Below, piece by piece: positions 17,683 to 54,536 of a stretch of DNA of 64,000 nt. Both the position numbers and the translations under genes were made by a program. The notes below the pieces were generated by a model. The model was given only the letters and a program-made list of their open reading frames with translations, made no database searches and was not told the origin of the DNA. Origin of the DNA: Larus michahellis (lineage: Eukaryota; Chordata; Aves; Charadriiformes; Laridae); assembly GCF_964199755.1 (NCBI RefSeq), contig NC_133907.1, forward strand, positions 6,081,001 to 6,145,000, read 5' to 3'. Position 1 is the stretch's first letter, and the number at the start of each line of letters is the position of its first letter.

Positions 17683-18535
17683 GGTGCAGAGGTGCGAGGC
17701 AGCAGGGGAGGTGCCGGCGGCCCCGAGGAGGCTTTGCCGGGGCAATGGAGAGACTGCTGGCTGCGTAGCACCGGCCTGGGGGACTCTTGCGCAGCAGCTC
17801 CACGGCACCTGCTTTCCTCTGCGAACTGCATGCCACCCCCGCCCAGGAGCGCCGGGGAGCGCCCGTCCGCCGGCGGGGAGAGGAGCTCGGCCGCAGCCCT
17901 CACCGGAGGGCGAGGGAACCCAGCGTGGCGCGGCAGGAGGAGCAGGCAGCCCCCCGATGCCAGAGCAACGGGGGAAGGGGCAGCCGGAGCTGGGACGCAT
18001 GCACGGGTGGAAGGACGGTGGGACAGATGGAGGGACGGATGGCAAGCGCGAGTGCTCGGTGCCTGGCGCCGCGGCTGAAGGGGCCCCAGCAGCTGGCCGC
18101 AGCCCGGCGCCGGCAGGAGGAGGACGGGCAGAGCCCGGGGGCTCCTGCGGCCGGACTGGCACCAGCACGGCTCCGTGTCCATAGTGTAAATAGTTCTGTC
18201 CGTGGCGCCCGTGCTCCTCGCAGGGCTGCTCCCATCGCATCCGTGTTTCTTTCCCACATGTGTGAGTCCCGTGTTCGCCGACGCTGTGTACCGTAGAGGG
18301 GAGGAGCGGAGAAGAGGAGTTTCTTTGGTGTGTAAAGACGTCTTTGCAGCTGTTTTGTAGTCGTTGTGGTTTTTATGCGGAGCCTCCGGGCTTTATTTAA
18401 CCTCCTTGGGTTTTGTTTTGTAAGGATTAATTTAACACCGCTAACCATTTTATTACTTTTATCAAGAAGAGCAAAGTCTATTTTTGATTTCTGTTTCCTA
18501 GTTCTTAGGAACATTAAAAACCAGCATACAGCTCT
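17683..18535 (+). other. PCIF1: PCIF1 3' UTR
   Basis: After the TAA at 17680-17682 comes a GC-rich stretch and then, from about 18280, an AT-richer segment ending in an ATTAAA signal at 18513-18518, so cleavage is expected near 18530-18540. The distal part, from about 18090, is repeated almost unchanged at 24165-24590. Confidence 0.75.
18513..18518 (+). terminator. PCIF1 poly(A) signal ATTAAA
   Basis: ATTAAA lies in ACATTAAAAACC about 830 bases after the stop codon and is the first credible signal downstream of it. Cleavage itself was not observed. Confidence 0.6.
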
Positions 18536-18559
18536 GCCCCGTGTCCGTGCCTTTCCTTC

Positions 18560-21700: not shown

Positions 21701-22340
21701 TGCGCCGGGGCTGCCTCCGCAGCGTGGCGGGCAGCCTGCCCCACGCCTCGTCCATGGGGGGCACGCCGCCGCCGGCACCCCGCCTGCCTCCCCGGACAGG
21801 GCCGCAGGGCTGGGGACCGACCCACGGCTGCTTCCCACTCGGGAGCACCGGCACAGACCGCAGGTACGGGGAGGTGGTGGGGGGGGCGGGGGGAACGCGA
21901 GGATGAGGGGGGCTGCAGGGCTGGGGGGTCCCTGCAGCCAGCACAGCCCGGTGTCCCGGGGAACCTGGATGGACGGGGAGGGACAAGCCCCGCTCGGGAC
22001 CCTGAGCCCCCCCACTCCATGCTGCAGCACCGAGGGGCTCTGCAGCCGGTCCTGTCCCCTGGGAAAGACGTCTCCCTCCTTCCCAGGCACCGGGGAGGGG
22101 ATGAGTCCCAGCGCTGGTGGCACCAGCCAGTGGTCAGAGCTGGGCTGTGCTGGCCCTAGGAGGGGGCTGCTGCTTCCCCATCCCTGCTCCCCCATCCCCG
22201 CTCTGTCATGGACCCTGAGGGGGTGACCAGGACCCAGCCTGTGGGGTGCAGAGGGGCCCGTAATCTGCCCCCCAAGCCCTCTCTCACAGCGGCTTCCCTC
22301 TCCCCCAGCCCAGACAGCCCCTGGCCAGCCCTCGGGCGGC
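21700..22340 (+). other. Possible 5' exon and UTR of the RNF182-like gene
   Basis: A CpG-rich block ends in a good donor CAG/GTACGG at 21863/21864. A pyrimidine tract ending CTCCCCCAG precedes 22309, only 32 bases before the ATG at 22341. This suggests one upstream noncoding exon, as in many intronless-CDS genes. The evidence is splice motifs only. Confidence 0.35.
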
Positions 22341-23066
22341 ATGGCCCACCAGGACGGCGGGCGGGGGCTGCAGCCACCCGTACACGTAGCCCCCGAGCTG
22401 GAGTGCAAGATCTGCTACAGCCGCTACGACGCCCGCGCCCGCAGGCCCAAGCTGCTGCGCTGCGGCCATCGCCTCTGCGCCAAGTGCCTGCGCAAGATGG
22501 TGGCGCTGGGGAACGCGTCGCCCCGCCAGCTCCGCTGCCCCTTCTGCCGCCAGCACAGCCCGGTGCCCGGTGGGGACGTGCAGCAGCTGCAGGACGACGG
22601 CGAGGCGCTGGCACTGCTGACAGGCCATGAGCGGGCCAAGAAGCAGGGTGTCCCCCGGTCCCCCGAGGTTCTCCTCTGCCCCAGCGTACTGGAGCCCACG
22701 GCCGGCCCCGACTGCCTGGTCGTCACCATCCTGGAGGTGCCGGAGGACGTGGCCCCGCCGGAGGGCCTGGGAGGGCTGGAGGTGGTGCGGCTGTACCGCC
22801 CCGCCAGCCTGGGCACGCTGCCCTGCCACGGCCCCGGGCAGAAGTGCCGCTCCTGGGGGTGGCGAGCCGTCCCCCGCTTCATCCTGGGCGTCCTCTGCCT
22901 CCTCTACTTCAGCTCCCTGCCCTTCGGTATCTACCTCCTGCTCATCGAGCACCACAGCCTGGGCATCGTCCTGGTCAGCCTCGTGCCCTCCACCCTCCTC
23001 CTCTGCATCGTCTACAGCCTCTGCCAGTGTCTGTGCCGAGAGGTCTTCGGGTTCCCCCACTCCTGA
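22341..23066 (+). CDS. RNF182-like RING finger E3 ubiquitin ligase with two transmembrane segments
   Basis: The uninterrupted frame encodes 241 residues. It begins with an RING-HC finger: Cys22, Cys25, Cys41, His43, Cys46, Cys49, Cys66, Cys69, in ELECKICYSRYD...CGHRLCAKCL...LRCPFCR. This is followed by a middle region with LVVTILEVPED and VVRLYRPASLGT. Two hydrophobic segments follow at about 180-202 (LYFSSLPFGIYLL) and 207-231 (LGIVLVSLVPS), with a Cys-rich QCLC tail. This is the exact architecture and length class of RNF182 (247 aa in human), a membrane-anchored ubiquitin ligase; several blocks match, including YFSSLP-GIYLL and VSLVPS. It is clearly diverged from RNF182, so I call it a paralogue and give no symbol. 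The start is supported by position relative to the RING and the nearby acceptor. Substrates are unknown. Confidence 0.85.
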   Translation: MAHQDGGRGLQPPVHVAPELECKICYSRYDARARRPKLLRCGHRLCAKCLRKMVALGNASPRQLRCPFCRQHSPVPGGDVQQLQDDGEALALLTGHERAKKQGVPRSPEVLLCPSVLEPTAGPDCLVVTILEVPEDVAPPEGLGGLEVVRLYRPASLGTLPCHGPGQKCRSWGWRAVPRFILGVLCLLYFSSLPFGIYLLLIEHHSLGIVLVSLVPSTLLLCIVYSLCQCLCREVFGFPHS

Positions 23067-23935: not shown

Positions 23936-24620
23936 CCTTGCAGAACAGTGCAGGCTTTGCCGAGGGGGAGCCCAGGCTGGAGCGGCTGCGGGAGCTTGTT
24001 GCAGCCTACGAGCAATTCAGGCCGAACTCTTGGTTCCTTGTCCTCCTCCTCCTCCTCCTCTACTGCAGACAGAGCAGGAGCTGTGCCGAGAGCACAGCAG
24101 CAGCCAGGAGACTGATCCCAGTTGGGGAATCGCGAGTGCTTGGAGCCTGGCAGGGCCCCGGCAGCTGGCCACAACCCGGCGCCGGCAGGAGGAGGACGGG
24201 CAGAGCCCGGGGGGCTCCTGCGGCCGGACTGGCACCAGCACGGCTCCGTGTCCATAGTGTAAATAGTTCTGTCCGTGGCGCCCGTGCTCCTCGCAGGGCT
24301 GCTCCCATCGCATCCGTGTTTCTTTCCCACATGTGTGAGTCCCGTGTTCGCCGACGCTGTGCACCGTAGAGGGGAGGAGCGGAGAAGAGGAGTTTCTTTG
24401 GTGTGTAAAGACGTCTTTGCAGCTGTTTTGTAGTCGTTGTGGTTTTCATGCGGAGCCTCCGGGCTTTATTTAACCTCCTTGGGTTTTGTTTTGTAAGGAT
24501 TAATTTAACACCGCTAACCATTTTATTACTTTTATCAAGAAGAGCAAAGTCTATTTTTGATTTCTGTTTCCTAGTTCTCAGGCACATTAAAAGCCCACGT
24601 ACAGCTCTGCCCTGTGTCCT
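23936..24620 (+). pseudogene. Partial duplicate of the PCIF1 last exon and 3' UTR
   Basis: This block repeats 17421-17690 and then about 18040-18565 of PCIF1 in the same orientation, about 6 kb downstream. It begins with CCCTTGCAG, the PCIF1 last-intron acceptor (17421-17429). It then jumps to AACAGTGCAGG, losing 52 bases of exon flanked by GCAG. A further roughly 350 bases of the proximal 3' UTR are missing. The coding-derived part differs at roughly one base in ten, but the distal UTR (24172-24580) shows only about five differences in about 410 bases. The match includes intronic acceptor sequence and continues past the ATTAAA signal without a poly(A) tail, so it is a DNA-level duplication, not a processed copy. 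It is out of frame with PCIF1 and cannot encode its C terminus. Confidence 0.9.
24586..24591 (+). terminator. ATTAAA poly(A) signal in the duplicated PCIF1 3' UTR
   Basis: This is the duplicate of the PCIF1 signal at 18513. It is the first convincing same-strand poly(A) signal after the RNF182-like stop codon at 23066, so it may serve that gene. Confidence 0.4.
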
Positions 24621-25260
24621 TGCCTTCCCGGGGTTCCCGGTCCCCTGTCTCCTCCCCAGCCAGCTCCCCTGGCCCCACTTGTCACCCTGGGGGCTGCACG
24701 GGGCCACCTGGCTGGCCCCGGGGGATGGGGGGAGCCCGGCTGGTCTGAGCCCCTTCCCGGCAGCCGATGTCCCACTCAGCGATCCACAGGTGCTGCCGCT
24801 CCCTCCCACGCCTCCCACATGCGTGTCCCTGTCCCTGTGTGTCCCTGTCCCTGTGTGTCCCTCCCTGCACTGCCCCTTGGCGCAGGGCTGTGACGGCCAC
24901 CCCAGCCCTTTGTCCCACGTGTGAGCCCACCCCACGGGTGACCCCGGACGTCCAGGGAGGGGGAAAGGGAGGAGGCATCAGGAAGGCACTGGATCGCCTG
25001 GAAACACTGCGAGTCTTCCTCTGCCGAACGGAGGGGGCCCCCGTGGGGAGCCCAGCCGGTGGTGGGGATGGCGACCCCCCAGCAGCCTGGCCAGGTTCGG
25101 GCAGCCTGAGGGGCTCGGGCAGGACCTGCTCTGCTCCCCGGGGGCGGCGGAGCCAACCACAGCAGTGCTGGCAGTGGAGATGCCCACATCCCTGCCAGCA
25201 TCCCCCTCGCCATCCCCACTGCGTCCTCACTGGTGTCCCCTCCACAGACAGGCAACACCA
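24621..25260. other. Spacer between the PCIF1 duplicate and the homeobox gene
   Basis: The segment is GC-rich without a recognisable gene. At about 24825-24866 it carries a short tandem run built on TGTCCCTGTCCC and GTGTGTCCC units. Confidence 0.5.
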
Positions 25261-25282
25261 GGAGGTCCCGGATAGAGTCACA

Positions 25283-25288
25283 TTTATT
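25283..25288 (-). terminator. Poly(A) signal of the Iroquois-like gene
   Basis: On the minus strand this is AATAAA in TTAATAAATGTG, about 165 bases after the stop codon at 25452. It gives a short 3' UTR ending near 25265. Confidence 0.6.
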
Positions 25289-25451
25289 AACGCCCCACAC
25301 CCCTCCCTGCCCACACCTCCCTCTCTTCTTGCCCGGGCGGCCGCCTGGTCTCATGGCCATCTGTCCTGTCCTGCCCGGCCATGGGGCTGTCCCCTCCCCT
25401 CCCCACGGCCACAGCCCCGGTCCCCAGGGACAGGGCACAACTGCCCCAGCC

Positions 25452-26443
25452 CTACCCCTGCTCTGCCACCCCCGGGGGGCACCTGCTCTCGCCGGGGGGA
25501 GATGCCAGCATCGCTGCCACGCTCCAGATCTTGGCTTTCTGGGGCTGCTTGCCTTGCCCGGGGCCTGGCCCCACCTCGGGGCTGTACCCACACCCATCCT
25601 GCACAGGGCTGGGGTCAGGGCCGGGGGGGGCAGCTGGTGTAGCCCCCTCACCCTCGCTGTCCTCGCTGTCCGAGGCGCTGCGCGGTGCCCAGCTCGCCTT
25701 GTTCTCCTTCTTGAGGCGCCGGCGGGCGTTGGCGAACCAGGTGGAGACCTGGGTGAGGCTCATGCGGCTGACCACGGCCAGCATCACCTTCTCCCCCTTG
25801 CTGGGGTAGGGGTTCCTGGGGTGCCGCGCCAGCCAGGCCTTCAGCGCCCCGGTGCTCTCCCGTGCCGCTGCCACCTTCGCCCGCCCCGGCTCCACGGGAA
25901 GGGGCTGCCGGCAGCAGGGCGGGCAGAGCCCGGCGCTGGGCAGCAGCCCCGGGGGCACCTCGTAGGCTGGTGAGACCTGGAGGGGGTAGAGGGGTGTCAG
26001 GGCAGGATGGACTGGGGGGCAACAGTGGCCGGGGGAGGGGGCATGTGGGTGTTCGGCCCTTCGCACATGGGAGGGAGCAGAGCTGGGTCCTGCCCGTCCT
26101 TGCCCTCGCCTGTGCCTGGCATTGTGCCCCCCAAGGTGCCAGGGGGCAGGAGGGTGTCAGGGGGTGCAGGGAACCCGGCACAGCAACTCCCCAACCCCAA
26201 CCATCCCACTCAGCCCCAGCCTGGTCCCAGGAGGGGTCCCACGTCCCGTCCCCCCAGGAGCTGCCGTGTGGCACTTACCGAGGGCGCCAGGAGGCTCAGG
26301 GAGGGTGGCAGCAGGCTGTAGCCGGCCAGCATGGGGCAGGGACAGGGCAGCAGGGCTTGGGGGGGACCCCGCAGGGCTCCCCAGGGCCCCCCACAGTCCC
26401 CCGGCTCTCTACCTGGGCTCCCCTCGCCCCGAGGAGCTGCCAT
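25452..26443 (-). CDS. Compact Iroquois-type (TALE) homeodomain protein
   Basis: Two exons join in phase: 26443-26279 (55 codons, donor TCG/GTAAGT) and 25976-25452 (174 codons plus stop), giving 229 aa. The TALE homeodomain spans about residues 86-150. It shows the three-residue loop region [10 protein letters not shown] and a recognition helix [14 protein letters not shown] with the Ala of the Iroquois class at homeodomain position 50. After it come an acidic Ser/Asp/Glu patch ([12 protein letters not shown], about 155-166) and a [10 protein letters not shown] block near 203-212, which resembles the KPKIWSLAE block of IRX proteins. The protein is about half the length of IRX1-6 (roughly 400-550 aa). 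Within the homeodomain the first helix ([20 protein letters not shown]) is clearly changed from the usual NATRDATATLKAWL form. It is therefore a divergent, stand-alone Iroquois gene, possibly of the irx7 kind known from fish; orthology cannot be settled from here. It should be a nuclear DNA-binding regulator. Confidence 0.88.
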
Positions 26444-26480
26444 GCTGCAGGGAGAGGAGCTGGGGAGCTGCTCCCGGGTG

Positions 26481-26487
26481 TTTTATA
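26481..26487 (-). promoter_or_regulatory. TATA box of the Iroquois-like gene
   Basis: The minus strand reads GCTATAAAACACC about 40 bases upstream of the ATG at 26443, implying a 5' UTR of only about a dozen bases. Just upstream, at 26509-26517 on the plus strand, lies TGACAGCTG, a TALE/MEIS-type site. Confidence 0.55.
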
Positions 26488-26499
26488 GCTGCCGGGGTC

Positions 26500-28870
26500 C
26501 GCGGTGACTGACAGCTGATTAGGGGGTATTAGCACCCACGAGAGCGGCAGCGGGGATCTGGGGCAGCCGATACCGACCCCTCCCCGGCCACTGTTGGACA
26601 GGGACTGGCGGGGAGCATCCTCCCTCCCTGACCGCCGGCCACCAGCCAGGACGTGTCCAGGAGCCACACCAGGAACACTGTGTGGCCCCAGCGCAGCCCA
26701 TACAGCCCCCAGGGATGGGGTGCAATGGGGCCCACGTAAGCCCCACACGGCCATGGGGATGCAGCACGCGCAGGGATGCACATGGGACACAGCACAGGCT
26801 CTGCTGCGGTGCCAAGAGCCATTGGTCCCCGTCCTTGACGCCAGCCATGACCTGTGCTGGGAGCAGGTGTCGGCAGAGCCCCCCTCCATGCCACGGTGGG
26901 CCAGGTTGGAGGGCCGGGGGCAGGCGTGAGGACTTGTGCACGGCCCAGTAGGATGCGGGCAGCGCGAGGTGCTGCCCCGGAGCGTGCTCCTCCTCCAGCT
27001 TGGCCAGGTCTTCACCCAAGCCCCAGTGCCGCCATGCCCACGGCTGGATTCCCAGCTGCAGAGGAGCGAAGGGGAAGGGGTCCCGCAGCCCTGGGGACCC
27101 TTTGCCGGGGTGGGGACCCTTCCCCGCAGGCACCAGGGTGTTCCTGCCTGCTGGCGGAGGGGGGGACAGCGGGCAGGGCAGCGGTGGGCAGCTGGGCGAG
27201 GGGCCCTGAGAGCCCGCAACCCCCCGAGCCGCCCGTCTCCTGCCGCTGTGCTGCCCCGCTCAGACTGGGATTATCCCACAGGTTGTATCCGTCATTAAAT
27301 ACCGACTAATAACGCTCTCAGGATATTAAATATGTAACAAACCCGCTTAGCGCTGGCCGGGGACGGGAAGGGGAAGGTCACCGGTGCTAATGAGCCCTGC
27401 TGCATCCCCGGGCTCCCTGCAGGCCCCCGGTGACAGCAGAAGGTCCCAGGGCCAAGGTGCCACCACTGAGGGATCCAGAGCCTCCACGGCCCCGCTGTGC
27501 CCCATGGCCAGAGCCCCAGAGCACCTGGAGCTCCCCATGTGCAGCAGCCGGGAGCCCCAGTCCCGTTCATCCCAGCACCATCCCATGCTCTCGGGATGGT
27601 CCCATGCTCTCGGCAGCCCCAGGCGTGGAAGCCACAGGACTACCAGGACCCTGTGCCACCAGCCAGGAGGGGACATCCAGGCCCAGCCCTGGCCACAGCC
27701 CCACAGCAGCCCCGTAACCTTGTCCCCACGGGACTCCTCCAGCCCTAATCAGTGACGCCGGCAGCGCCGCGGATCCGCTTTATTAGATAATGGGGCTGTA
27801 ATCTAGGAAAGCGTCTGTGGATTGCTGTGACGTCCAGCTGTGTCCATCCACCATGTCAGTGGCCGGCTGCGGCCCAACCTCTCCAGCTGTGCTGTGGCCA
27901 CAGGGAGGGCCATGGCCAGCCACTGACATGGCAAACGGACACAGATGGATGCCGACTGAGTCATGGCTAGACAGGCACAGCCACACGCCGGCACAGACAG
28001 GGCACCAGCTGGAGGTGAAGGCAGCAGGACGCAGCCATGGCTGGGACAGAGCCACAAGCCCCGGCGGCTGAGGCTGCTCGCCCAGGGGAGGTGTGGGGAC
28101 ACCGACACCCCCCGGCTGGGCAAGGTCAGGGGTCCAGCCTCACCAGCCCAGGTGTCCAGTACGCAGGCAGGGGAGGAGCAGCGGGCTCCCTGGGGACAGC
28201 GGGCACCCTGGGCACAGTGGGCATCCCCAGCAGCCAGGGAGGGAGGGTGCTGCTGTCACTTTGGGCAGAGCACAGGCTCTGTGGTCACAGCACAAGCCCC
28301 AGTGCTGTCCCCGTCCCCTGCAAGAGCTGGACTGGGAGCCCAGCCGAGAGCCCGGTGATCACACCCCACCAGTCCCACAACGACGGGGCTGCGGCCTCAC
28401 AGAAGCTCCTGCTGAAGTTGGGTGGGTCCAGACCTTTTTCCCCTCCGCAGATAATCAGTTTAATGCAAAAGCATGGAACTAAAACTCTGAGATTAGCTGT
28501 TATAATCACATGTAAATACTTCCAGACAATCCGCTCAGGGAGGGGCGGCGTGTGTAGTTTGGGACAGAGTTACACGGGATTTAGGCTGTTTACCACTCGA
28601 TTAATTTCATGACTCCAGCCCTAAACCCACCCTTGTACCAGATGCCCGGCTCAGTTCCCAGAAGTCAAGGTCACCCAGGCCGGAGGAAGCCGATAGCACA
28701 GGGCAGCCACATCTGCCAGCGGGCACCTGCCCGGCCCCAGCGCCAGGCTCTGGGACCCGCTGCGCCCCAGCCCTGGAGGAGGGAGGAGGAAGGCTGGGCT
28801 TGCCTGTCCCTGCAGGCCGGGTTGGGGGCAGGGGCTGGCACAGGAGCACAGACCCTCCAGGCAAGGACAG
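26500..28870. other. Noncoding interval between the homeobox gene and the ZNF335 3' end
   Basis: No coding exon is recognisable. Against a GC-rich background there are three AT-rich islands packed with homeodomain-type cores: about 27267-27350, 27778-27812 (TTTATTAGATAATGG) and 28440-28615. An inverted repeat with 13-bp perfect arms lies at 27851-27863 and 27919-27931. Position next to a homeobox gene makes these islands enhancer candidates. Confidence 0.45.

Positions 28871-50496: not shown

Positions 50497-54536
<4,040 letters not shown>

Follow-up and report, generated by a model that had tools for sequence, protein, structure and literature searches.

Fish irx7 is a seventh, divergent member of the Irx family of homeobox genes. 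In the portion of the text of PMC5831802 that concerns the family, most vertebrates are credited with six Irx genes in two clusters, and irx7 is placed with the irxB cluster of zebrafish; a passage of PMC10161429 terms irx7 a teleost-specific duplicate. Two Irx clusters are likewise given in the corresponding part of an account of human homeobox genes (PMC2211742). Kerner et al. (2009; PMC2674049), in the sections relevant here, inferred that the six vertebrate genes arose by duplication of three ancestral ones, characterized Irx proteins by a homeodomain, an IRO A region (stated without boundaries), and an IRO box, and described the Mohawk protein (MKX) as being without the Irx-specific domains. 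No third Irx locus, third cluster, or set of seven Irx genes appeared among the titles and abstract openings listed in our literature searches, and the combination of PCIF1, ZNF335, and homeobox matched only work on aortic aneurysm. The excerpted text on homeobox loss in mouse and human (PMC3141429) does not mention Irx, and the excerpts of PMC3335143, PMC11034925, and PMC13066147 hold nothing that bears on the gene described here.

We analyzed a window of 64,000 nucleotides from Larus michahellis that holds an Irx-type gene, which the genome carries in addition to IRX1 to IRX6. We consider it probable (about 0.62) that a third Iroquois locus arose in the 2R duplications and that this seventh Irx gene, intact and of the IRX1/IRX3 type, is its relict, kept beside MMP9 and SLC12A5; we base this on its intron position, its IRX1/IRX3-like exon layout and diagnostic residues, and its MMP-KCC neighbors. 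The original prediction of a two-exon, TATA-driven gene for a 229-aa protein was borne out at the sequence level by the TATA box, the consensus splice sites, and the full reading frame, with the start codon in a context of A at −3 and G at +4 (see the table). Automatic genome annotation may already list the gene as an IRX-like locus.

Table. Features of the Irx-type gene and of the loci compared with it (positions are those of the window unless a contig is named)
Feature	Position	Strand	Remark
Irx-type gene, two exons, 229 codons	25265-26460	minus	Sequence reading
TATA box, TATAAAA	26481-26487	minus	37 nt separate it from the ATG
Exon 1, coding part, 165 nt, 55 codons	26443-26279	minus	ATG at 26443
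Intron, GTAAGT...CCTCCAG, GT-AG, phase 0, 302 nt	26278-25977	minus	Position of IRX intron 1
Exon 2, coding part, 525 nt including stop TAG	25976-25452	minus	Homeodomain and KIWS block together, compare IRX1/IRX3
TALE homeodomain, 63 residues	25701-25889	minus	N-terminal arm and helix 1 diverged
Recognition helix	25707-25757	minus	Identical to IRX1 to IRX6 of the same genome
KIWS block	25494-25538	minus	Diverged; 8/15 residues match the IRX1/3 block
Polyadenylation signal, AATAAA	25288-25283	minus	Sequence reading
Seven TAATCH sites, candidate cis-control region (inferred)	26516-28508		Upstream of the Irx-type gene
AT-rich island in GC-rich DNA, candidate enhancer (inferred)	28430-28625		Upstream of the Irx-type gene
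MMP9, catalytic part, syntenic marker	51475-53120	plus	Counterpart is MMP2 beside IRX6
IRX4, IRX2, IRX1	C2, 100.04, 100.64, 101.16 Mb		Cluster A
IRX3, IRX5, IRX6	C4, 18.26, 18.69, 19.04 Mb		Second cluster

The Irx complement of the assembly (1.405 Gb, 616 contigs) was determined with searches that score the best candidates only. A Homeobox_KN profile search recovered 21 places, including five Irx genes and the Irx-type gene, and a search with the IRX3 homeodomain as the protein query added IRX1 to these five. IRX1 to IRX6, names that we assigned presumptively from signatures and cluster order, sit in two clusters confined to contigs C2 and C4. Only the Irx-type gene lies outside them, on C16, where it has no clustered partner, in agreement with its original description as a lone gene. 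A search of the assembly with the whole protein yielded nine matches, namely, the gene itself in two pieces, IRX1 to IRX6, and one weak place on C22, and found no near-identical second copy. As a separate observation, 89 bases of the IRX1 homeobox (C2:101158437) read N in the assembly.

The 229-aa product matched the Pfam Homeobox_KN model with 57.4 bits (E = 1.3e-15; cutoff, 24) and the general Homeodomain model with 25.8 bits (cutoff, 22.9), the homeodomain being residues 85 to 147. The Iroquois recognition helix, the KIWS block, and the diverged first helix that had been noted in the original prediction were all recovered. The KIWS block, which we believe to be the published IRO box, is followed by a C terminus of just 13 residues; the C-terminal NWTN block, the other later C-terminal blocks, the acidic stretch, and the basic N-terminal arm are absent. 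With tblastn, the best stretches to each of IRX1 to IRX6 showed 51 to 72% identity over 45 to 129 residues, and other homeobox loci showed 29 to 48% identity over stretches of at least 39 residues. The locus that we read as MKX shares the TALE homeodomain (48% identity over 46 residues) but is further from the Irx-type gene than are the IRX genes (72% over 69 residues for IRX3). MKX, MEIS, TGIF, and PKNOX were rejected as the closest kin because of their lower scores. An AlphaFold model of exon 2 alone placed three helices at the expected homeodomain positions at low confidence (mean pLDDT, 54.5; 43 to 81 across the homeodomain by blocks of ten residues), and a Foldseek search of the PDB with this model returned one match (E = 6.9).

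Gene structure and diagnostic residues both point to IRX1 and IRX3. Each of IRX1 to IRX6 has its intron 1 acceptor at the matching place, ahead of a YE or YD motif (without the Y in IRX4), and the intron 1 donor, read for IRX2, IRX3, and IRX5, is in phase 0, as in the Irx-type gene. Since its own phase-0 intron coincides with IRX intron 1, the gene is not a processed copy; a retrocopy, one of the cases that the original prediction had named as refuting it, is thereby ruled out. IRX1, IRX3, and the Irx-type gene carry the homeodomain and the KIWS block within one open frame; in IRX2, IRX4, IRX5, and IRX6 the two lie in separate frames or are divided by a stop, a break that we read as an intron. 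Counted over 74 plus 18 columns, with IRX3 substituting where IRX1 reads N, the gene has three of the four residues diagnostic of the IRX1/3 pair, one of the nine diagnostic of IRX2/5, and none of the three diagnostic of IRX4/6. The likeness to IRX1/IRX3 comprises the recognition helix, the REST, PRS, and KIW..SP residues, the place of intron 1, and the shared exon for the homeodomain and KIWS block. The gene differs from them in lying outside the clusters, in lacking the basic arm, the acidic stretch, and the NWTN block, and in the length of its product, which is about half of the usual 400 to 550 aa (a range taken from the original prediction). In trees built from six data sets of 72 to 104 columns, the gene formed a long branch that joined IRX1/3 in four sets (support, 31 to 43) and IRX4/6 in the two sets of the homeodomain alone (support, 49 to 51); no grouping of the gene with any of the IRX pairs was rejected at 0.05.

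The genomic setting connects the gene to the second Irx cluster. MMP2/MMP9 and SLC12A4/SLC12A5 are 2R pairs. On C16, the Irx-type gene (6.106 to 6.107 Mb) is followed by MMP9 (6.132 to 6.134 Mb) and SLC12A5 (KCC2; 6.161 Mb), the MMP9 pieces starting 25 kb from the gene and the SLC12A5 piece lying 54 kb away. On C4, IRX6 (19.04 Mb) is followed 180 kb on by MMP2 (19.22 to 19.24 Mb) and a further 240 kb on by SLC12A4 (19.48 Mb). The gene pieces had MMP9, SLC12A5, SLC12A4, MMP2, and PCIF1 as their best matches in PDB look-ups. Because the Irx-gelatinase-KCC order is common to both contigs, we take the C16 locus to be the sister of the IRX3-IRX5-IRX6 region; under uniform placement, the chance of falling no more than 200 kb from a gelatinase gene is about 6e-4. 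NFAT did not serve as a third marker of the paralogon: none of the 17 Rel-homology domain matches in the assembly fell on C4 or C16. The gene that we read as SLC12A7 is on C2, the same contig as cluster A, yet 38 Mb away.

The Irx-type gene is flanked by PCIF1, recognized by its PDB match, and by a multi-C2H2 gene that presumably is ZNF335, so that the site between PCIF1 and ZNF335 given in the original prediction stands. Between the body of PCIF1 and the Irx-type gene, we additionally found a RING-finger frame and a second PCIF1 3′ end, neither of which the original prediction had mentioned. The PCIF1 3′ end thus occurs twice (18081 to 18553 and 24153 to 24626), with 97% identity over 474 bases, and an adjoining piece of 202 bases is only 80% alike, a pattern that hints at recent duplication or conversion. 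The RING-finger frame (22227 to 23063, plus strand), with hydrophobic stretches in its C-terminal part, is situated between these copies.

The chief rival to a third locus is duplication of a cluster-A Irx gene after 2R; the copy, IRX1-like or with a converted homeobox, would have landed by chance near MMP9 and then evolved fast. We judge this to be unlikely; in its favor, silent similarity to IRX2 and IRX4 exceeds expectation. Among the residues shared with IRX4, 35 of 40 codons are identical (25.9 expected; z = 3.3; none of 2,000 draws as high), an excess that persists under a null that allows for codon preference. The corresponding counts are 32/40 for IRX2 (z = 2.3), 29/42 for IRX3 (z = 1.4), 27/39 for IRX5 (z = 1.5), and 17/38 for IRX6 (z = −0.8). 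The 60 bases of helix 3 are identical at 59 positions to each of IRX1, IRX2, and IRX4 and at 54 positions to IRX3 and IRX5, and they differ from IRX6 at 14. The long protein branch also fits a later copy. However, pairs within the clusters show still higher silent identity: codon agreement is 52/54 for IRX2-IRX4 and 48/54 for IRX3-IRX5, with helix 3 identical at 60/60 bases in both pairs, and agreement is lower across clusters (40/56 for IRX2-IRX5 and 25/54 for IRX4-IRX6). We take the IRX2-IRX4 and IRX3-IRX5 splits to be ancient, yet these pairs differ little in their silent positions, so that silent distance cannot serve as a clock for these genes. The pattern does not extend to IRX6 (27/53 codons shared with IRX3), and IRX1 is visible in helix 3 only. 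The near identity of two homeoboxes in each cluster at silent sites is a sign of conversion inside the clusters, and, judging from these comparisons, either such conversion or a slow pace of silent change is probably at work. A later copy is further disfavored by the DNA matches, since the strong ones to the IRX2, IRX3, and IRX4 loci, among the matches listed, are limited to the homeobox, and by the improbability of a chance landing in the MMP2/MMP9 paralogon.

That the gene is instead a decaying pseudogene whose frame is open by chance appears quite improbable to us. Its N-terminal arm is altered, its C-terminal part is lost, and the open frame by itself is weak evidence for coding (P of about 0.028 at the local base composition). 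The dN/dS values against the five paralogs tested range from 0.17 to 0.79, the highest being against IRX4, and suggest that constraint beyond helix 3 is loose. Nevertheless, the recognition helix is intact and is combined with consensus splice sites, a TATA box, a favorable start context, and a polyadenylation signal. Moreover, the homeodomain shares 47 of 64 residues with IRX3, whereas 300 neutral simulations, set at the IRX3 silent divergence of 0.44, averaged 16.8 and never exceeded 24 (the lower value of 0.23 for IRX4 would shrink the contrast); 257 of the 300 gained a stop.

Orthology with fish irx7, in which both would be the same ancient seventh Irx gene, is more improbable still, and the likeness to irx7 drawn in the original prediction is not supported. 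Both are short, divergent, single Irx genes. Compared by description, however, the published accounts excerpted above speak against orthology: one terms irx7 a teleost-specific duplicate (PMC10161429), and another places it with the zebrafish irxB cluster (PMC5831802). The broader proposal of an ancient Iroquois lineage fared better: the IRX-MMP-KCC order shared by C4 and C16 and the exclusion of a retrocopy speak for it, but the trees do not place the gene.

The gene would encode a short nuclear DNA-binding protein, and Irx-type sites should be read by its unchanged recognition helix, because the helix keeps the Irx residues. The loss of the basic N-terminal arm and of regions outside the homeodomain, including the long acidic and C-terminal parts, suggests a reduced, weaker factor that would probably compete or repress. 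The upstream region offers candidate control sites. The 2.1 kb from 26461 to 28600, which precede the ZNF335-like gene's 3′ end, contain seven TAATCH sites against 0.49 expected (none of 1,000 shuffles had as many), one of them in the near-palindrome GGATTATCC (27268 to 27276). Among 619 stretches of equal length, taken in steps of 100, two reached seven sites, both upstream of the Irx-type gene. When 30 letter orders were tested, TAATC occurred most often (seven times), followed by CTAAT (six); the motif was picked after inspection of the sequence and other AT-rich words are enriched too, so the enrichment figure is flattering. TAATC suits K50 homeodomain proteins such as OTX2 and CRX, and the sites suggest OTX/CRX-like control of the gene. 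Since they fit control by OTX2 or CRX, the gene may be switched on by such TAATC-binding factors in the retina, pineal, or anterior brain, which is the weakest step of this scheme. The full scenario, in which a third Irx locus survived 2R in the form of a single IRX1/3-type gene, persisted in birds and possibly in further sauropsids, was lost in mammals, and supplies the retina or pineal with a short Irx factor that is under OTX/CRX-type control, we regard as doubtful, though conceivable.

Two further elements lie upstream. No second copy of the AT-rich island was found in the genome. An inverted repeat at 27825 to 27957 (minus strand, that of the Irx-type gene) folds into a highly stable hairpin of −89.7 kcal/mol (z = −8.05; none of 200 shuffles as stable) and could be a microRNA precursor or a palindrome; no other copy of it was found in the genome, and Rfam gave no match at gathering thresholds in the window, the hairpin included.

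A third locus from 2R, if the reading is true, would alter the published account of vertebrate Irx as six genes in two clusters. It would also mean an Irx gene free from the enhancers that the clusters share and a regulator of development that may be missing from mammals.
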